From positions 1 to 63,530 of the forward strand of contig JAUNTY010000011.1 of the NCBI GenBank assembly GCA_030538415.1: DNA of 63,530 nucleotides. Reading direction: 5' to 3'. A program made the position numbers and the translations under genes. Origin of the DNA: Neisseria sp. (lineage in GTDB: Bacteria; Pseudomonadota; Gammaproteobacteria; Burkholderiales; Neisseriaceae). Each line of letters opens with the position of its first letter. Positions within the stretch are counted from its first letter, which is position 1. The notes under the pieces were generated by a model, which was not told the origin of the DNA, did no database searches, and saw nothing but the letters and a program-made list of their open reading frames with translations. This document shows, piece by piece, positions 21,814 to 29,437 of this stretch.

Positions 21814-21971
21814 TATAGTCGAAGAAATGAGTTTCTGCTACGGCGTTGGCTCGCCTTGCCGTACTATAGTGGAAAAACTTAATATTTGATACAAGGCAGC
21901 AAACCGCAGACAGTACAGATAGTACGGCAAGGTGCAGCAACGCTGTATCAAACTAAATTGGAACGACTATA
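21814..21971. repeat. Two overlapping Correia-type elements
   Basis: An outer left end (TATAGTCGAAGAAATGAG) is followed after 51 bp by a new left end at 21865 (TATAGTGGAAAAACTTAA) and one right end AAATTGGAACGACTATA at 21971. The right end overlaps the NodT-like gene and supplies its final codons. Confidence 0.8.
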
Positions 21972-23468
21972 CATGCTTGCTTTACCGCCCGCCTCCTGCA
22001 GCGGCGGCACATTCCCAATCGCTTTGTTCACTGCCACGAAGCGGCTGTTGAGGTCGCTTTCGGCGGCGGTGAGTTCGCTTTGGGCTTGCAGTCGGCTGCG
22101 TTGGGCATCGAGCACGCTGCTGAAATCTGCCAAGCCTCTTTGGTAGCGTGCTTGCAGCAGGCGGTGGGCTTCGGTGGCGCTGGCGGCGCGTTGGCTGAGT
22201 GCTTTGACTTGTTGTTGCGCGGCGGCGTAGTGGCTGAGGGCTTCGTCGATTTCTTTCCAGGCGGCGAGGATGGTTTTTTGGTAGTTTACTGCGGCTTCTT
22301 GTTGTTGCAGTTCGCGCAGTTGCACCACGCTGACGCGGCGGCCGTGGTCGAAAATAGGCAGGTCGAGGCTGGGGCCGATTGACCAGGTGCGGCTGCCCCA
22401 GCTCATGAATTCGCTGCCTTGATAGCTTTCGCTGCCGAATGAGGCGCCGATGCGCACGCTCGGATACAGCGCTGCTTTGGCCACGCCGATTTGGGCGGTG
22501 GCGCTGTGCAGGGCGGCTTCGGCGGCGAGGATGTCGGGACGGCGGCGGGCGACTTCAGATGGCAGGCCGAGCTTCAAATCGGGCAGTTGCGTATTGGCTT
22601 GGGTTTGCGCCTGCAACAGGGCGTTGAGTGCGCCGGGTTGCTCGCCCAACAGTAAGGCAATGCGGCCGATGGCGGCGTTGCTCTGCGCGATCAGGGCGGG
22701 CAGTTGCGCTTCGGTGGCGGCCAGCTCGGTTTGCTGGCGTTGCAGCTCGATGCTGTTGTTCAGCCCGCGACGTACACGGCTTTGCAAAAGTGCGGTCTGC
22801 TCGCGCAGGGCGGCGATGTTGTCGCGCTGGATGGCGGTTTGCTTTTGCAGGCTGCGCAGGTCGAAATAGTTTTGCGCCACTTCGCTCGCCAGCGTCAGCC
22901 GCGCCCATTCGAGCAAGGCGGCTTGTTGGCGCACGTCGGCATCGGCGGCTTCGATGCTGCGGCGGATGCGCCCCCAAAAATCGGGCTCCCACGAGGCATC
23001 GAAGCCGACCTGATAATCGGTGTAGGGCGAGGCCAGGGTGGCGGCGAGCTGGTCGCGGTTGCTGCCGCCGACGGCATCGAGCATGCGCGTGCTGGCGCCG
23101 TATTCGCTGATGCGCTGGCGGTTGACACCGCCTTGCAGGTTCACGTCCACCCCGCGTTGGGCGGCGGCGCCGACGCGTTGCATACGCGCCTGGGCAAAAC
23201 GCAGCGCGGCGGTTTGCACGTCGGGGCTGTCGGCAAGCGCACGGCTTTCCAGTTGGTTTAAGACGGGGTCGTTAAACGCGCGCCACCAGTCGGCAGGCAG
23301 CACGGCATCGCTGATCACGGGCAGTTGCAGCTCGCTGCCGTTGTGCAGGTTTTGCCAACTGTCGGCGCGGGCGTGGATTTGCGGTTGTTGGAAATCGGGG
23401 CCGACGGCGCAGGCGCTGAGGGCGAGTGCCAGTGCGGTCGGCAAACAGAAGCGAAGTGCGGTTTTCAT
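21948..23468 (-). CDS. NodT-type outer-membrane efflux lipoprotein
   Basis: A 506-residue outer-membrane channel of the TolC/NodT group, partner of the ABC efflux genes upstream. The N-terminus is a lipoprotein signal with lipobox LSAC (Cys20), followed by AVGPDFQQPQ. Two long repeated OEP domains carry typical features: ALADSPDVQTAALRFAQAR, and PSEVARRRPDILAAEAALHS before the second repeat. The last seven residues (YSRSNLV) and the stop are read from a Correia element, so the native C-terminus was probably different. A Haemophilus-type uptake core encodes residues 3-5 (T-A-L). Confidence 0.9.
   Translation of the reverse strand: MKTALRFCLPTALALALSACAVGPDFQQPQIHARADSWQNLHNGSELQLPVISDAVLPADWWRAFNDPVLNQLESRALADSPDVQTAALRFAQARMQRVGAAAQRGVDVNLQGGVNRQRISEYGASTRMLDAVGGSNRDQLAATLASPYTDYQVGFDASWEPDFWGRIRRSIEAADADVRQQAALLEWARLTLASEVAQNYFDLRSLQKQTAIQRDNIAALREQTALLQSRVRRGLNNSIELQRQQTELAATEAQLPALIAQSNAAIGRIALLLGEQPGALNALLQAQTQANTQLPDLKLGLPSEVARRRPDILAAEAALHSATAQIGVAKAALYPSVRIGASFGSESYQGSEFMSWGSRTWSIGPSLDLPIFDHGRRVSVVQLRELQQQEAAVNYQKTILAAWKEIDEALSHYAAAQQQVKALSQRAASATEAHRLLQARYQRGLADFSSVLDAQRSRLQAQSELTAAESDLNSRFVAVNKAIGNVPPLQEAGGKASMYSRSNLV
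22788..22796 (+). other. Haemophilus-type uptake signal core, copy 1
   Basis: Exact AAGTGCGGT, preceded by AA as in the extended consensus, inside the NodT-like gene. Confidence 0.7.
23454..23462 (+). other. Haemophilus-type uptake signal core, copy 2
   Basis: Exact AAGTGCGGT overlapping the second to fifth codons of the NodT-like gene. A single-mismatch copy (CAGTGCGGT) lies about 25 bp away. Confidence 0.7.
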
Positions 23469-23523
23469 AGGTTTTTTCTCTTGTTAAGCGGCCTTTCAGA
23501 CGGCCTCTAATCTCTTGACTGTT

Positions 23524-24624
23524 TTATGCCAAACGGTTGCGGAACAGCCACGCCGCCAGCGGCAGGGTGACGGCGGCGACCGCCAGCAGCGGCACAAAAC
23601 TTGTTGCCACGTCGGCAAATGTCGCCCCTTGCAGATAAACGCGGCGCACGATGTCGATGCCGAAGCGCAGCGGGTTGACATAAGTTGCGGTTTGCAGCAC
23701 TTCGGGCATGTTTTTCACCGAGGTGAGCAGGCCGGAGAGCAGCATCAGCGGCATAATCAGCACGAAAGTGTAGAGCATCGCCTGCTGCATCGTTGCCGAC
23801 AGCGCCGAAATCGACAGCCCGATGCCGACCGCCGCCACGGTAAACATCAGCAGCCCGCCATACAGCAGCCACAGCGAGCCCGCCATCGGAATCTGAAACC
23901 AGAAGCGGATAATCAGCAAAATAATCGTCGATTGCACCAACCCGACGCAAATCGAGGGAACCGCCTTGCCGACCAGAATCTGCATCGGCGTCAGCGGCGT
24001 CACCAGCAATTGGTCAAACGTACCCTGTTCGCGCTCGCGCGCCACCGACAAGGCCGCCAACAGCAGGGTTTGTATCATGCTGAGCGAGGCAATCAGCGCG
24101 GGCATCATCGTCCAGCGCGATTCCAGATTGGGGTTGTACCACACCCGTTTTTCAATGCCGACAGCCGGTGCACCGCTCAGCTGCTGGTTGTAACTACTAA
24201 CGATATTCGCCATGTAGCCCGCCGCCGAACCGGCGGTGGAGGAGTTGCGCCCGTCGAGAATCATCTGCAACGGCGCTTCCTGTCCGGCGTTCAGACGGCC
24301 TTCGAAATCACTCGGAATGCTCAGCACCAGCAGCGCCTGCCCGTTGTCGATGACCGTGGCAATCTGCGTGGGCGAATCGAGCGTGGCGACGCGGTGGAAC
24401 ACGCCGGTGCCGTCGAGTTTCGACACCAGCTCCACCGCTGCCGCGCCGCGGCTCTGATCGAGCAGCGCATACGGCACGTTGGTGAGGTCGTAAGTCGCGC
24501 CGTAGCCGAACAGCAGCGCCTGCAACAGCGGCGGCACAAACAGGGTGACGCGGTTGGCGGGGTCTTTCAGAATCGCCAGAAATTCTTTGCGTATCAAGGC
24601 GATAATTTGCCAGAATGTTTCCAT
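23524..24624 (-). CDS. ABC-2 type efflux permease (YbhR-like)
   Basis: A 366-residue inner-membrane permease; E. coli YbhR has 368 as I recall. One N-terminal helix (about 22-40), a large periplasmic domain (residues about 45-165, with DGRNSSTAGSAAGYMANIVS) and five C-terminal helices, with the ABC-2 cytosolic motif REREQGTFDQLLVTPLTP. It starts 3 bp after the other permease stops, so the two are co-translated and probably form a heterodimer. Confidence 0.88.
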   Translation of the reverse strand: METFWQIIALIRKEFLAILKDPANRVTLFVPPLLQALLFGYGATYDLTNVPYALLDQSRGAAAVELVSKLDGTGVFHRVATLDSPTQIATVIDNGQALLVLSIPSDFEGRLNAGQEAPLQMILDGRNSSTAGSAAGYMANIVSSYNQQLSGAPAVGIEKRVWYNPNLESRWTMMPALIASLSMIQTLLLAALSVAREREQGTFDQLLVTPLTPMQILVGKAVPSICVGLVQSTIILLIIRFWFQIPMAGSLWLLYGGLLMFTVAAVGIGLSISALSATMQQAMLYTFVLIMPLMLLSGLLTSVKNMPEVLQTATYVNPLRFGIDIVRRVYLQGATFADVATSFVPLLAVAAVTLPLAAWLFRNRLA

Positions 24625-24627
24625 CGT

Positions 24628-25758
24628 TTAATCCAGTTTCTTCTGCAAAGTGCGGGTGGCCGCACCGATCAACACCAGCGCATACAGCGCCAGCACCGCG
24701 CAATTTTTGGCTATCATCGTCCAATTGTTGCCCGCCAGAAACAGCGTTTTCACCAGCTCCATAAAATAGGTGGCGGGCAGCAGATGGCTGATGACCTGAA
24801 TCGCCGTCGGCACGTTGCGCAGGTCGAACACGAAGCCCGACAGCATCATCGCCGGTAAAAAACTCGCCAACATCGCCAACTGGCTGGCCTGAAACTGGTT
24901 GCGGGTTTTGCCCGAAATCAGCAGCCCGATGGCGAGCGACACCAACAGATACAGCAGCGAGGCGAAGATCAGCACCGCCAGCGAGCCGCGTATCGGCACG
25001 CCGAACAAAAAACGCGCCGCCAACAGACACATCAGCAAATCCACCGCGCCGATCAGCATATACGGCGCGAGCTTCGCCAACACCAGCTCCAGCGGTTTCA
25101 CCGGCGTGACAAACAGCGATTCCAGCGTGCCGCGTTCCCATTCGCGCGCAATCAGCAGCGAGGTGAGAAACGCGCCGATCAGCGTCAGCACCAACACCAG
25201 CAAGCCCGGCACCAGATACCAGGTGCTGTTGCCCGCTTCGTTGAACCACATCCGCTGCACAATCGTCACCCCGCCGCCCGCATTCAGACGGCCTGCGCGG
25301 TCGGCCTGCAACTGCGCGTATTGGCCGACGGCGGCGCTGATGTAGCTTTCCATCGTTTCGGCGGTGCTGGAATTGGTGCCGTTGAGAATCAGCTGGATTT
25401 GCGCCGTGCCGGCGTTGAATTGGCGGCTGAAATCGGGCGGAATGCGCACAATCGCGTCCACCTGCTCGCTGTTGAGCAATTGTGTGGCGGTCTGCATGTC
25501 CGCCGTGCGCTGCGGCGCAAGGTAAGCCGAGCCCTGCAGGCCTGCCAACAGGTTTTGCGCCGTGGGCGAAGTGTCTTCCAACACCACCGCCACACCGGCG
25601 TTTTTCACGTCAAACGACAAGCCGTAGCCAAACAGCAAAATCAGCGCCAGCGGCAGCAGCAGCCCCACCAGCAGATTGCTTTGGTCGCGCAGCATCTGGC
25701 GCGTTTCCTTGCGCACCAGCGCCGCAAAACGGCGGATAAAACCCGAATCAGCCTGCAT
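24628..25758 (-). CDS. ABC-2 type efflux permease (YbhS-like)
   Basis: A 376-residue permease; E. coli YbhS has 377 as I recall. Same layout as its partner: N-terminal helix (LLVGLLLPLALILLFGYGLS), periplasmic domain with LNGTNSSTAETMESYISAAV, coupling motif EWERGTLESLFVTPVKPLEL and further helices. Its start overlaps the end of the ATPase gene by 11 bp, which implies translational coupling. Confidence 0.88.
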   Translation of the reverse strand: MQADSGFIRRFAALVRKETRQMLRDQSNLLVGLLLPLALILLFGYGLSFDVKNAGVAVVLEDTSPTAQNLLAGLQGSAYLAPQRTADMQTATQLLNSEQVDAIVRIPPDFSRQFNAGTAQIQLILNGTNSSTAETMESYISAAVGQYAQLQADRAGRLNAGGGVTIVQRMWFNEAGNSTWYLVPGLLVLVLTLIGAFLTSLLIAREWERGTLESLFVTPVKPLELVLAKLAPYMLIGAVDLLMCLLAARFLFGVPIRGSLAVLIFASLLYLLVSLAIGLLISGKTRNQFQASQLAMLASFLPAMMLSGFVFDLRNVPTAIQVISHLLPATYFMELVKTLFLAGNNWTMIAKNCAVLALYALVLIGAATRTLQKKLD

Positions 25759-27586
25759 GTTGCGCTCCTTCTGCCGCCTGTTCCGCTTTCAGACGGCCTT
25801 GTTCCACAATGGCGATAAAGGCGCTGTTCATGTCGTCTGCCGCCGCGCCGCCCGCCTGTTGGCGCACTTCGCGCGGCGTGCCCAGCGCCAGCAGTTTGCC
25901 GGCGTCCTGAATGGCGATGCGGTCGCAATATTCGGCTTCTTCCATAAAATGGGTGGTGATGATGACGGTGACGCCGCTTTGCGCCAGCGTGGTGATGGTG
26001 CGCCAAAACGCGCGCCGCGCCAGCGGGTCGATGCCGCTGGTGGGTTCGTCGAGAAACAGAATCTGCGGCTTGTGCAGCAAACCCGCCGCCATCGCCAGCC
26101 GCTGTTTGTAGCCGCCCGGCAAAATGCCGCTGACCGCGTCGGGCTGCAATTCAAACTGCCGCACCACTTCTTTGATCCGCGCCCGCAGCGCCTGCCCGCG
26201 CAAGCCGTAGGCGCCGCCGAAAAATTCCAGATTTTCCTGCACGTTCAAATTGCCGTAGAGGGCGAATTTTTGCGACACATAACCGATCCGCGCCCGCGCC
26301 GCCGCCCGTGCCGTGCGCAGGTTCACCCCCGCCACTTCGAGAAAGCCGCTGCTGGCGGGCAACAGGCCGCAGAGCATGCGAAAGGTGGTGGTTTTGCCCG
26401 CGCCGTTCGGCCCCAGCAAGCCGAAAATCTCACCGTGCGCCACTTCGAACGAGGTGCTGGCGACGGCGGTGAAATCACCGAATGTGCGCACCAAATCGCG
26501 CACCACGATGGCCGGTTTGTCGGCGTTGGACTGCGCAAGTGCGGTCGGTGCGGCCGATGCCGTCTGAACCGCACTTGCGCTGTTTGAGACCGCACTTTCA
26601 CTGCTTGAGGCCGTCTGAACCGCACTTTGCTGTTGGCTTTTTTGCTGGGTTTGATATTGGCGCAGCAGCATCATAAAGGTGTCTTCCAGCATTTCCGGAC
26701 GCGCTTGCAGCGGCATTTGCGGCAGCAGCGCCGCCACCTGGCTCAATTCCACTTCGGGTTGGCGGATAAACGCCACCTCGCCGCCTTTGGGCACGGCATC
26801 GACAATGATGTTTTCCGCATCATACAAACGCGCCTGCACGTCCCGCGCCGGGGTGTTGGCAGGCGGCGACACCTTGAAGGTCAGCCCGCGGGCGCGTTGG
26901 CGCAGCTCGGCAGGCGAACCTTGCGCCAGCAGCTTGCCCTGGTGCATCACAAACACCTGTTCGCAACGTTCCGCTTCGTCCATATAAGCGGTGCTGACCA
27001 ACACGCTGAGTTTTTCCTCGTCCACCAATTGCTGCACGATTTTCCACAAATCGCGCCGCGACAGGGGATCGACGCCCACGCTCGGCTCGTCGAGCAGCAG
27101 CAAATCGGGCGTGCGCACCAAGGTGCAGGCCAAGCCCAGTTTCTGCTTCATGCCGCCGGACAATTTGCCCGCCGGGCGGTCGGTGAAACGCGCCATGTCG
27201 GTCATTTCCAGCATGCGCCCGAAACGCTCGCGCCGCACCGCCTGCGGCACGCCGTGCAAATCGGCATACAAATCCAGATTTTCCTGCACGCTCAAATCTT
27301 CATACAAGCCGAAGCGCTGCGGCATATAGCTGATGCGGCTCTGCACCGCCTGCGGATTGGCGGACACGTCTTCGCCCAACACGTTCAGACGGCCTGAATC
27401 CGCCTTTAACAGCCCGGCAATCAAACGCATCAACGTGGTTTTGCCCGCGCCGTCGGGACCGACCAGCGCGGTCAGCCTGCCGGCTTCCACGTTGAGCGAA
27501 ATATCGTCGAGCGCGAGCAGCGGCGAGCCGTCGGGCGCGGTGAAGGTTTTGCGCAAGCCGTTGGCGGTAATGGTGTGATGGTTCAT
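25748..27586 (-). CDS. Twin-ATPase ABC efflux subunit (YbhF-like) with uptake-tag linker
   Basis: A 612-residue cytosolic protein with two nucleotide-binding domains. NBD1: Walker A GPDGAGKTT, signature LSGGMKQKLGL, Walker B LLLLDEPSVGVD. NBD2: Walker A GPNGAGKTT, degenerate signature LPGGYKQRLAM, Walker B ILFLDEPTSGID. E. coli YbhF is, as I recall, about 578 residues; much of the excess is a Ser/Ala/Gln-rich linker near residues 315-355 that is spelled by alternating Haemophilus and Neisseria uptake signals. It would power the two permeases in export of drugs or other hydrophobic compounds. Confidence 0.92.
   Translation of the reverse strand: MNHHTITANGLRKTFTAPDGSPLLALDDISLNVEAGRLTALVGPDGAGKTTLMRLIAGLLKADSGRLNVLGEDVSANPQAVQSRISYMPQRFGLYEDLSVQENLDLYADLHGVPQAVRRERFGRMLEMTDMARFTDRPAGKLSGGMKQKLGLACTLVRTPDLLLLDEPSVGVDPLSRRDLWKIVQQLVDEEKLSVLVSTAYMDEAERCEQVFVMHQGKLLAQGSPAELRQRARGLTFKVSPPANTPARDVQARLYDAENIIVDAVPKGGEVAFIRQPEVELSQVAALLPQMPLQARPEMLEDTFMMLLRQYQTQQKSQQQSAVQTASSSESAVSNSASAVQTASAAPTALAQSNADKPAIVVRDLVRTFGDFTAVASTSFEVAHGEIFGLLGPNGAGKTTTFRMLCGLLPASSGFLEVAGVNLRTARAAARARIGYVSQKFALYGNLNVQENLEFFGGAYGLRGQALRARIKEVVRQFELQPDAVSGILPGGYKQRLAMAAGLLHKPQILFLDEPTSGIDPLARRAFWRTITTLAQSGVTVIITTHFMEEAEYCDRIAIQDAGKLLALGTPREVRQQAGGAAADDMNSAFIAIVEQGRLKAEQAAEGAQHAG
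26537..26627. repeat. Cluster of four Haemophilus uptake cores and two DUS
   Basis: AAGTGCGGT cores at 26537-26545 (plus strand) and 26568-26576, 26589-26597 and 26619-26627 (minus strand); DUS cores at 26559-26568 and 26610-26619. The second and fourth Haemophilus cores share one base with a DUS, giving AAGTGCGGTTCAGACGGC on the minus strand twice. All lie in the ATPase linker and stay in frame. Confidence 0.85.
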
Positions 27587-27590
27587 GGCG

Positions 27591-28598
27591 TTACGGCTTT
27601 TCGGCGCTCAAATCCAGGCGCACGGTGGCAGGCTGCCCCAAGCGCAATTGGTTGTGCGGATCTTGCACCAACACGCGGATTTCATACACCAGGCTGGAGC
27701 GCAGCTCTTGGGTTTGCACCGATTTGGGCGTGAATTCCGCCACCGAGGAAATATAGCCGACGCTGCCGCTAATCGGCTGGTTCGGCGCGCTGTCGGTGGT
27801 GACGCTCGCGCCCATGCCCGATTTCACCTTGCCCAAATCCGGCTCGCTGATGTAGGCGCGGATCCATTTCGGCTCGGTCAGCGCCAGCGTAAACGCCGGT
27901 TTTTGCGGCGACGCCATGTCGCCCGGCTCCAGCAAACGCGCCCGCACCACGCCCGCCACCGGCGCTTGCAGCTCGCCCTGGCCGATTTGGTATTGCAACA
28001 AATCGCGTTTCGATTCCACCGCTTTCAGCTGCGCATCGGCGGCGGCAATGTCTTCCTTGCGCGTGCCTTCCTGCAACAACTTCAGCGCGTCGCGCTGCTC
28101 CGCCAGCTGCGCCTCGGCAACCTTGGCGGCGCTGCGGGCGGCATCCAATTCCTGCGCGCTGGTGGCCTTGCCTGCGGTATCGGCAGAGACCGCCTGCAAA
28201 CGCGCCAACTCATTTTTCGCCTGCGCCGCCTGCGCTTGCGCCGCATTCACCCGACTTTTCGCCTGCGCCAATTCCTGCGGGCGCGCACCGTTGCGCAGCC
28301 GCGTCAGGTTTTCGCGCTGCGCTGCAATCTGTGCCGCAGCTTCATCCGCCTGCAACGCAAGCGCTTCGGTATCGAGCTGCCCCAACACCTCGCCACGTTG
28401 CACCACATCGCCTTCTTCCACATTCAGGCTCTTGATGCGCCCGGTGCCGTCAAACGCCAGCGATACCTGACGGATATCGACATTGCCGTTCAACACCAGC
28501 GTATTCGGGTCGCTCTGGTTGCGGCTCTGCCACCAATAAGCCGCGCCCGCCGCCACTGCCACAGCCGCCAGCGCAGCCACGATTGTTTTTTTGTTCAT
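27591..28598 (-). CDS. HlyD-family periplasmic adaptor (YbhG-like)
   Basis: A 335-residue membrane-fusion protein; E. coli YbhG has about 332. An N-terminal anchor (TIVAALAAVAVAAGAAYWW), a first biotinyl-lipoyl strand (LAFDGTGRIKSLNVEEGDVV), a long coiled-coil hairpin (about 80-205), the second lipoyl half (GELQAPVAGVVRARLLEPGD) and a beta-barrel are in the usual order. It links the permeases to the NodT-like channel. First gene of the operon, 4 bp before the ATPase gene. Confidence 0.92.
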   Translation of the reverse strand: MNKKTIVAALAAVAVAAGAAYWWQSRNQSDPNTLVLNGNVDIRQVSLAFDGTGRIKSLNVEEGDVVQRGEVLGQLDTEALALQADEAAAQIAAQRENLTRLRNGARPQELAQAKSRVNAAQAQAAQAKNELARLQAVSADTAGKATSAQELDAARSAAKVAEAQLAEQRDALKLLQEGTRKEDIAAADAQLKAVESKRDLLQYQIGQGELQAPVAGVVRARLLEPGDMASPQKPAFTLALTEPKWIRAYISEPDLGKVKSGMGASVTTDSAPNQPISGSVGYISSVAEFTPKSVQTQELRSSLVYEIRVLVQDPHNQLRLGQPATVRLDLSAEKP

Positions 28599-28642
28599 AG
28601 AAATTCCTGCCGTGATTCATTCGGATGGCAGGATTATAGCAT

Positions 28643-28665
28643 TAGTTTAAAATTAATTTAAACTA
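28643..28665. promoter_or_regulatory. Palindromic operator candidate for the CecR-type repressor
   Basis: TAGTTTAAA and TTTAAACTA flank a 5-base centre, a perfect 23-bp dyad between the divergent adaptor and TetR-family genes. A second looser A/T-rich block (GAGTTAAATTTAAAATTAAG) follows. Good site for autoregulation and control of the efflux operon. Confidence 0.6.
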
Positions 28666-28712
28666 AATTTGAGTTAAATTTAAAATTAAGCGACAATGGG
28701 CAATCGACAAAA

Positions 28713-28752
28713 AGGCCGTCTGAAACCGCACTTGCGCTTTTCAGACGGCCTG
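28713..28752. repeat. DUS inverted pair with Haemophilus uptake core in the loop
   Basis: DUS at 28715-28724, Haemophilus core at 28725-28733 (minus strand) directly abutting it, then the opposed DUS at about 28740-28750. The DUS arms can pair, with the foreign tag in the loop. It lies in the leader of the repressor gene. Confidence 0.8.
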
Positions 28753-28783: not shown

Positions 28784-29437
28784 ATGAATAACCCAGCCCG
28801 CGCCAGCCGCGCCGACGGCGCCGACACCCGCGCCCGCATTCTCGAAACCGCAGGCGAACTCTTTGCCGCGCAAGGCTTTGCGCAAACACCGAACAAAACC
28901 ATCGCCGCCGCCGCCCAGGTGGATTTGGCCTCGATCAACTACCATTTCGGCAACCGTGAAGGCCTGTATCAGGCGGTGTTGGTCGAAGCCCACCGCCGCA
29001 CCATCAGCCTCGCCGACCTGCAACAGCTCGCCGACAGCCCGCTCAGCGCCGAAGCCAAACTGCGCCTGCTGCTGGACGGCGTGATGCGCAAAATCCTCGC
29101 CGAACAAGGCTGGCACACCCGCGTGATGGCGCAAGCCTTCGCCCAACCCGTGCAAAGCCACCAACTGCTGGAGGGGGAAATCCTGCCCAAATCGGTGCTG
29201 ACCAAACAAATCGCCAGCGACATCAGCGGCATCCCCGCCGCCGAACCCGCGCTGCAACTCTGCATGATCAATATCCTCGCGCCGGTGCTGATGCTGTTTT
29301 TATTCGGCCACCACCTGCCCGCCCCGCTGCAAGGCATCGACACCCGCAACCCCGACGCCCTGGCGGAGCATTTCCACCGTTATGCCGTAGCGGGATTGCA
29401 GGCAGCGGGAGACGCGTGGCGGGCGAAGCGGGAATAA
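28784..29437 (+). CDS. TetR-family repressor, CecR (YbiH)-like
   Basis: A 217-residue regulator with an N-terminal helix-turn-helix (RARILETAGELFAAQGFAQT, then IAAAAQVDLASINYHFGNRE) and the C-terminal domain of the CecR/DUF1956 group (LLLDGVMRKILAEQGWHTRV). In E. coli CecR (YbiH) represses the adjacent ybhGFSR operon; here the same neighbours lie on the other side of a shared control region with a palindromic operator. It probably represses the efflux system until an inducer binds. Confidence 0.9.
   Translation: MNNPARASRADGADTRARILETAGELFAAQGFAQTPNKTIAAAAQVDLASINYHFGNREGLYQAVLVEAHRRTISLADLQQLADSPLSAEAKLRLLLDGVMRKILAEQGWHTRVMAQAFAQPVQSHQLLEGEILPKSVLTKQIASDISGIPAAEPALQLCMINILAPVLMLFLFGHHLPAPLQGIDTRNPDALAEHFHRYAVAGLQAAGDAWRAKRE

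Follow-up and report, generated by a model that had tools for sequence, protein, structure and literature searches.

Fused Neisseria and Haemophilus uptake words in DNA shared by Neisseria and chelonian Pasteurellaceae

Uptake words are often regarded as a means of self-recognition that excludes foreign DNA, and whether they exist for this purpose or have spread through biased uptake is an old dispute. Here, we describe a stretch of 63,530 nucleotides from a Neisseria sp. genome (assembly GCA_030538415.1, contig JAUNTY010000011.1, positions 1 to 63,530 of the forward strand; hereafter the window), in which the DNA uptake sequence (DUS) of Neisseria is fused at three places to the core of the Haemophilus uptake signal sequence (USS). 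We also follow these composite words through other genomes, and discuss them as candidate bilingual uptake tags of gene cassettes.

Composite uptake words in the window

The 10-mer DUS GCCGTCTGAA occurs 98 times in the window (0.13 expected), and the 9-mer Haemophilus core AAGTGCGGT seven times (0.56 expected; 0 of 100 shuffles reach seven), all seven cores being confined to positions 22788-28733. At three places, a DUS on the plus strand (26559-26568, 26610-26619 and 28715-28724) adjoins a core on the minus strand (26568-26576, 26619-26627 and 28725-28733). An earlier note on this DNA had placed the three fusions at 26559-26576, 26610-26627 and 28715-28733, and these coordinates are exact; its observation that the first two read alike on the minus strand, and that the third has one extra T, was likewise verified in the sequence. 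In composites 1 and 2, the DUS and the core overlap by one base to give the 18-base word AAGTGCGGTTCAGACGGC on the minus strand, and in composite 3 the DUS abuts the core without overlap, the minus strand reading as the 19-base AAGTGCGGTTTCAGACGGC with its extra T. The note also held that such fusions cannot be accidental. This stands in so far as three composites are seen in the window against 0.011 expected when the seven cores and 98 DUS are placed independently, and 107 exact composites over ten loci against 0.28 expected. It does not stand for three separate events in the window, as composites 1 and 2 are parts of one repetitive in-frame linker and therefore not independent. Composite 3 belongs to a DUS hairpin whose two strands fold with -27.6 and -26.8 kcal/mol (z -4.4 and -6.0). 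The features of the locus, a transporter operon with a divergent TetR-type regulator, are as follows.

26559..26576, minus strand: composite tag 1 (AAGTGCGGTTCAGACGGC), in frame in the double-ATPase linker (word positions and open reading frame)
26610..26627, minus strand: composite tag 2 (AAGTGCGGTTCAGACGGC), sharing the linker with tag 1 (word positions and open reading frame)
28715..28733, minus strand: composite tag 3 (AAGTGCGGTTTCAGACGGC), between divergent genes (word positions)
28715..28749, no strand assigned: DUS hairpin with the Haemophilus core in loop and arm (DUS at 28715-28724, plus, and 28740-28749, minus)
26589..26597, minus strand: single Haemophilus core in the linker that holds tags 1 and 2 (word search)
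26537..26545, plus strand: single Haemophilus core in the double-ATPase gene, at the linker edge (word search)
22788..22796, plus strand: single Haemophilus core in the outer-membrane-factor-like gene (word search)
23454..23462, plus strand: single Haemophilus core at the 5' end of the outer-membrane-factor-like gene (word search)
21948..23468, minus strand: outer-membrane-factor-like lipoprotein, 506 aa (role from sequence, not from a family search)
23524..24624, minus strand: ABC-2 permease (PF12698)
24628..25758, minus strand: ABC-2 permease (PF12698)
25748..27586, minus strand: fused double ABC ATPase, 612 aa, linker with tags 1 and 2 (PF00005, two stretches)
27591..28598, minus strand: HlyD-type membrane fusion protein (open reading frame and Pfam)
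28784..29437, plus strand: divergent TetR-type regulator with a CecR-like C-terminal part (open reading frame and Pfam)

The linker of the ATPase has three cores and both 18-base composites packed into it, is read in frame as SAVQTAS-type repeats, and is about 20 residues longer than that of the closest Neisseria relative found (in G029). The relative's operon is 71-79% identical in pieces, with no Haemophilus core and four DUS in 13 kb. From this comparison, the cores of the window were probably gained by this locus. A recent import of the operon from Pasteurellaceae was considered and rejected, as its matches, found in 42 of 140 genomes of that family, reach at best 70% over about 235 bp. 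The sole near-identical match of the operon DNA in Pasteurellaceae is a tag hairpin of Chelonobacter oris. We interpret the operon as a bilingual locus of smaller size. The AT-rich and partly palindromic positions 28640-28700, which lie between the genes for HlyD and TetR, look like the operator of the transporter operon.

Composite-bearing genomes and tag structure

The composite words were searched in 46 genomes of the genus, 83 of Neisseriaceae and 140 of Pasteurellaceae, with the reversed word as a control. The earlier note had proposed to search all genomes of both families; among those scanned, composites are present in five of the 83 and four of the 140, and the reversed composite is found in none. 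The five Neisseriaceae all belong to the 46 genomes of the genus: the source genome of the window (G000; 2.84 Mb in 106 contigs) with 35 composites, a second Neisseria genome (G038; one contig of 2,949,123 bp) with 26, and three others with 1-2 each. The four Pasteurellaceae are C. oris (24), Pasteurella testudinis (28), Testudinibacter aquarius (5) and Testudinibacter sp. BK221 (6). The source hosts of Testudinibacter are turtles and tortoises. C. oris and P. testudinis are known from tortoises (PMC4271167). In a broader scan of 84,980 genomes, one per species, the 19-base AAGTGCGGTTTCAGACGGC was found in 29 stretches of six genomes, namely these four Pasteurellaceae, a Moraxella bin and one further bacterial bin; it was absent from the viral contigs scanned.

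The Haemophilus core is clearly above its control in only two of the 83 Neisseriaceae, G000 (98 against 16 for the reversed word) and G038 (77 against 28), the next highest count being 36; the two genomes contain 4058 and 4183 DUS (controls 5 and 2). Most of the cores of G000 are concentrated on two contigs, C29, where 25 of 26 cores lie within the final 27 kb, and C35, where 47 are spread over the whole 57 kb; seven more are those of the window, and the remaining 18 are scattered across at least 13 contigs, with at most two per contig. The C29 stretch and C35 carry 0.93 and 1.17 DUS per kb and 12 and 20 composites, most of which consist of a DUS hairpin whose 3' arm directly follows the core. 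The ends of C29 (65125-65465) and C35 (57182-56843) share a 341-bp repeat at 90%, a possible reason for the assembly breaks there. Conversely, DUS are raised in the four composite-bearing Pasteurellaceae, with 90 in C. oris, 74 in P. testudinis, 18 in T. aquarius and 29 in BK221 (reversed control 4, 3, 3 and 1), of which 75, 53, 13 and 13 sit in the island stretches that were fetched first. Five further Pasteurellaceae genomes (G129, G124, G123, G090 and G217) contain 59, 35, 30, 28 and 22 DUS (reversed 4, 8, 3, 4 and 3) and no composites, and DUS-bearing DNA therefore enters other Pasteurellaceae too.

Outside the islands, each host group keeps to its own dialect. The native flanks of three Pasteurellaceae islands (98 kb) hold 81 Hin-type cores, one Apl-type core and no DUS, and 113 kb of Neisseria DNA outside islands holds 187 DUS (155 of them AG-DUS) and two cores; the composite thus joins the very words that both host groups use. 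It consists of a Neisseria DUS, mostly as a DUS hairpin, and a perfect Hin-type USS core. The fetched regions contain 124 composites. For 97 of them a partner DUS is located at most 50 bp upstream, preceded by AG or AT in 90 of the 97, and 27 have no such partner. Loop length in the 97 hairpins ranges from 5 to 32 bases, and 71 different loop sequences occur. Eight stretches were folded; seven gave a strong hairpin (z -4.4 to -11.2), and the remaining one, which was badly cut, gave z -0.1. Only nine of 101 composites lie inside open reading frames of at least 120 aa, compared with 64 of the 121 remaining cores (DNA common to C. oris and G038 enters both counts twice), so that composites are mostly situated between genes; in the window, two copies are coding and the third is flanked by divergent genes. 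Roughly one in two island cores is part of a composite, for instance 24 of the 50 in C. oris and 25 of the 55 in P. testudinis. Certain whole hairpins reappear within one genome with unrelated flanks, as expected if hairpins are joints at which neighbors are exchanged. The note had named an ordinary repeat as what would overturn its reading; a single uniform repeat is rejected on the variable loops and flanks, even though some whole hairpins recur.

The composite shares with the DUS of Neisseriaceae, for which the available passages (PMC3630211, PMC2397512) describe dialects inside this family only, a perfect 10-mer core, the usual AG or AT before it and the frequent inverted pair, but differs in being fused to the word of another family. 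With the Hin-type USS, as treated in part of PMC3630211, it shares the perfect 9-mer core in the dialect of the host Pasteurellaceae, but this core lies in or beside a DUS, and the bases after it are a DUS arm and not an AT-rich stretch. In the literature searched, which leaves most subscription journals outside its coverage, we found no published description of a fused or composite uptake tag, in keeping with the earlier note, and the available passages of PMC1852404, PMC3630211 and PMC2397512 describe none.

Shared DNA, cassettes and block ends

C. oris and Neisseria G038 share 13 blocks located at 18-90 kb of one C. oris contig and at three chromosomal sites in G038. The longest is 16,343 bp at 99.1% identity and the least alike 143 bp at 92.3%; an extra block elsewhere measures 2.8 kb at 98.1%. 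Such identity between members of two bacterial classes demonstrates, at the level of sequence, a recent transfer. Eleven of the blocks (43.5 kb, the two shortest omitted), which diverge by 1-7%, carry nearly the same words in both genomes, with 43 and 41 cores and 63 and 62 DUS in C. oris and G038, respectively. The island of C. oris, which sits in a 185-kb contig between native flanks, has a G+C content of 54% against 45.5% in its flanks, and this indicates Neisseria-like DNA (47.1% is given for the whole genome; PMC4271167). The dense Haemophilus cores in the Neisseria copies indicate the opposite direction, and two-way traffic would be the simplest account of both. In addition, G000 shares 30 gene-sized blocks (at least 250 bp) with the islands of T. 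aquarius, BK221 and P. testudinis, at 74-88% identity and in shuffled order.

At three sites, two blocks that are joined at one composite tag in G038 are separated in C. oris by an extra piece bearing a composite tag at both ends, and the alignment thereby reveals tag-bounded cassettes. Cassette 1 (2.2 kb) encodes a LysR regulator and a short-chain dehydrogenase, and its tags form a 51-bp perfect direct repeat, of which G038 has one copy with each outer flank. Cassette 2 (4.5 kb) includes an amino-acid permease, and its two tags differ in the loop. Cassette 3 (7.9 kb) contains type I restriction-modification subunits, and its right tag is a core with one DUS arm only. These filled and empty sites fit gain in C. 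oris or loss in G038 alike.

Block ends, too, lie close to tags more often than expected. Of the 26 ends for C. oris and G038, 15 have a DUS no more than 50 bp away (2.05 expected, P = 0.0005), and 10 have a composite at this distance or less (0.84 expected, P = 0.0004). When G000 is compared with the chelonian Pasteurellaceae, ends within 60 bp of a DUS number 15 of 36 on C29 (3.04 expected) and nine of 24 on C35 (2.47 expected), and those within 60 bp of a composite eight of 36 (1.88 expected) and seven of 24 (1.0 expected). A Pfam scan of 74 island and flank proteins, which covered part of each island, identified LysR and AraC regulators, short-chain and aldo-keto reductases, aldehyde and alcohol dehydrogenases, pirins, amine oxidases, hydrolases, type I restriction subunits, transporters and others, four of the 74 matching no Pfam family. 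Among these proteins there was no integrase, integron integrase, transposase, conjugation protein or phage gene product. Of the 19 island loci, one has tRNA genes; these are situated beyond the island itself, at 15.2-15.5 kb of the C. oris contig.

Bilingual tags and their alternatives

We consider it probable that the composite is a bilingual uptake tag which marks, and in many cases bounds, cassettes exchanged between Neisseria and chelonian Pasteurellaceae. Direct support comes from the reality of the composites, their adjacency beyond chance, the two native dialects, the recent transfer between the families and the tagged cassettes that stand opposite single tags. In the first step of the proposed mechanism, tagged free DNA would be bound by competent cells of either family through their own word, which would amount to dual uptake. 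In the second step, near-identical hairpins (51 bp in the best case) would provide the homology for a cassette to be inserted at a resident tag, or lost from it, with no dedicated recombinase required. In the third step, repeated passage through both families would retain both words, with uptake bias adding them. More tentatively, and with some doubt, the islands might form a gene-exchange commons of the two families, perhaps with a third, in which the fused words serve as a dual entry pass and as cassette joints, and in which the competence machinery of two bacterial classes reads and shuffles an integrase-free, integron-like array.

Several observations weigh against bilingual tags. The window operon has no close counterpart in the 140 Pasteurellaceae genomes (best 70% over about 235 bp), a fourth piece present only in C. 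oris (346 bp) lies away from any tag, and 11 of the 26 block ends have no DUS inside 50 bp, the block-end tests being themselves biased to tags because repeats prolong alignments and tags are intergenic. The pair of two Testudinibacter genomes is weak in this respect, with three of 16 ends against 0.46 expected (P = 0.02). ComEC was found in six of six genomes, yet 10 of the 14 controls, E. coli among them, gave a hit as well, and hence it says little on competence. Furthermore, the extended Hin-type USS motif is described, in part of PMC1852404, as having stretches rich in AT on the 3' side of the core. The AT fraction for positions 3-7 and 14-18 after the core is 0.40 and 0.69 in composites and 0.54 and 0.56 in 80 native sites, which themselves show little enrichment; lacking the AT-rich stretch directly behind the core, composites may act less well as USS than native sites do.

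The principal alternative is that words accumulate passively once DNA has been transferred in some other way, whereby islands move by conjugation, phage or rare untagged uptake, and the bias of each host then adds its own word without any joint function, hairpin loops being the place where a second word harms least. Single cores are also intragenic, 64 of the 121 non-composite cores lying in open reading frames, as biased accumulation predicts, and the scan for mobile genes covered part of each island. Nevertheless, about half of the island cores are composite although hairpin loops are a tiny fraction of the DNA, none of the 74 scanned proteins is an integrase, transposase or conjugation protein, and the filled and empty sites are located at the tags themselves. 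We regard this explanation as unlikely.

A second rival, which we judge considerably less plausible still, takes the composite for a mere transcription terminator or dispersed hairpin repeat with a core in its loop by chance, uptake being irrelevant. Paired uptake words act as terminators in both families, according to part of Kingsford et al. 2007 (PMC1852404), and composites resemble them in their inverted words and strong intergenic hairpins; the frequency of a partner DUS (97 of 124), the folds (seven of eight) and the few intragenic copies (nine of 101) agree with this, as do the whole hairpins that recur amid unrelated flanks. However, composites differ from such terminators in having two words per hairpin and in being tied to cassette ends, their loops vary in length and sequence (71 distinct among 97), and 27 of 124 are partnerless. 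None of the window copies is at a gene end, and a plain repeat fails to explain why composites are limited to genomes of the two uptake families among which this DNA is shared, and to two bins. When 20 kb of C35 were scanned for terminators, 43 sites were obtained against 33 in shuffles, a difference too weak to be of use. Finally, an assembly chimera, which the earlier note had named as a possible refutation, or contamination might be suspected because G000 is in 106 contigs and both of its large bilingual stretches reach contig ends. This is practically negligible, since the single-contig G038 carries the shared blocks in three distinct places, composites are present in independent isolates, the genome of C. 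oris was sequenced from an isolate to about 50-fold coverage (PMC4271167) and has its island between native flanks, single hairpins hold both words, and eleven blocks that differ by 1-7% are therefore not the DNA of one sample.

If the composites are bilingual tags, the tag itself would offer a way around the barrier that separates two large mucosal families, and short uptake hairpins would act as cassette boundaries without a recombinase. The shared tagged islands suggest the passage of genes across a barrier thought to separate both families. Kroll et al. reportedly described an exchange of chromosomal genes between Haemophilus and Neisseria in 1998, which would concern the same two families; here, the exchange involves tens of kilobases, many cassettes and fused tags. 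In integrons, gene cassettes form arrays of small accessory units separated by variable hairpin sites. The present arrays are alike in both respects but differ in that the scanned proteins include no integrase, uptake words make up the sites, and regulators, operons and restriction systems are found among the pieces, which lie in both orientations. Frye et al. 2013 reported, in the part available, that USS-bearing DNA gave no significant transformation of N. meningitidis, and discussed this as a barrier (PMC3630211); a fused tag would be expected to pass it. Two-word islands in otherwise one-word genomes also constitute a natural experiment on passage through two competence systems, which makes the drive model testable.

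Three further observations concern the distribution of the words. A second C. oris stretch (C2 78001-92000, L103) has nine DUS and 12 cores, without a composite. In the Moraxella bin, composites are present on two contigs (L070, 429-447; L081, 2299-2317 and 3396-3414; L088, 856-874), and one contig, which carries a tagged cassette, is 89% identical over 449 bp to C35 beside the tag, its final 5.1 kb being free of either uptake word; a third family may thus take part, unless this DNA is misbinned. The further bacterial bin contributes a 3.2-kb contig (L075) with one composite at 2939-2957, two cores and three DUS.

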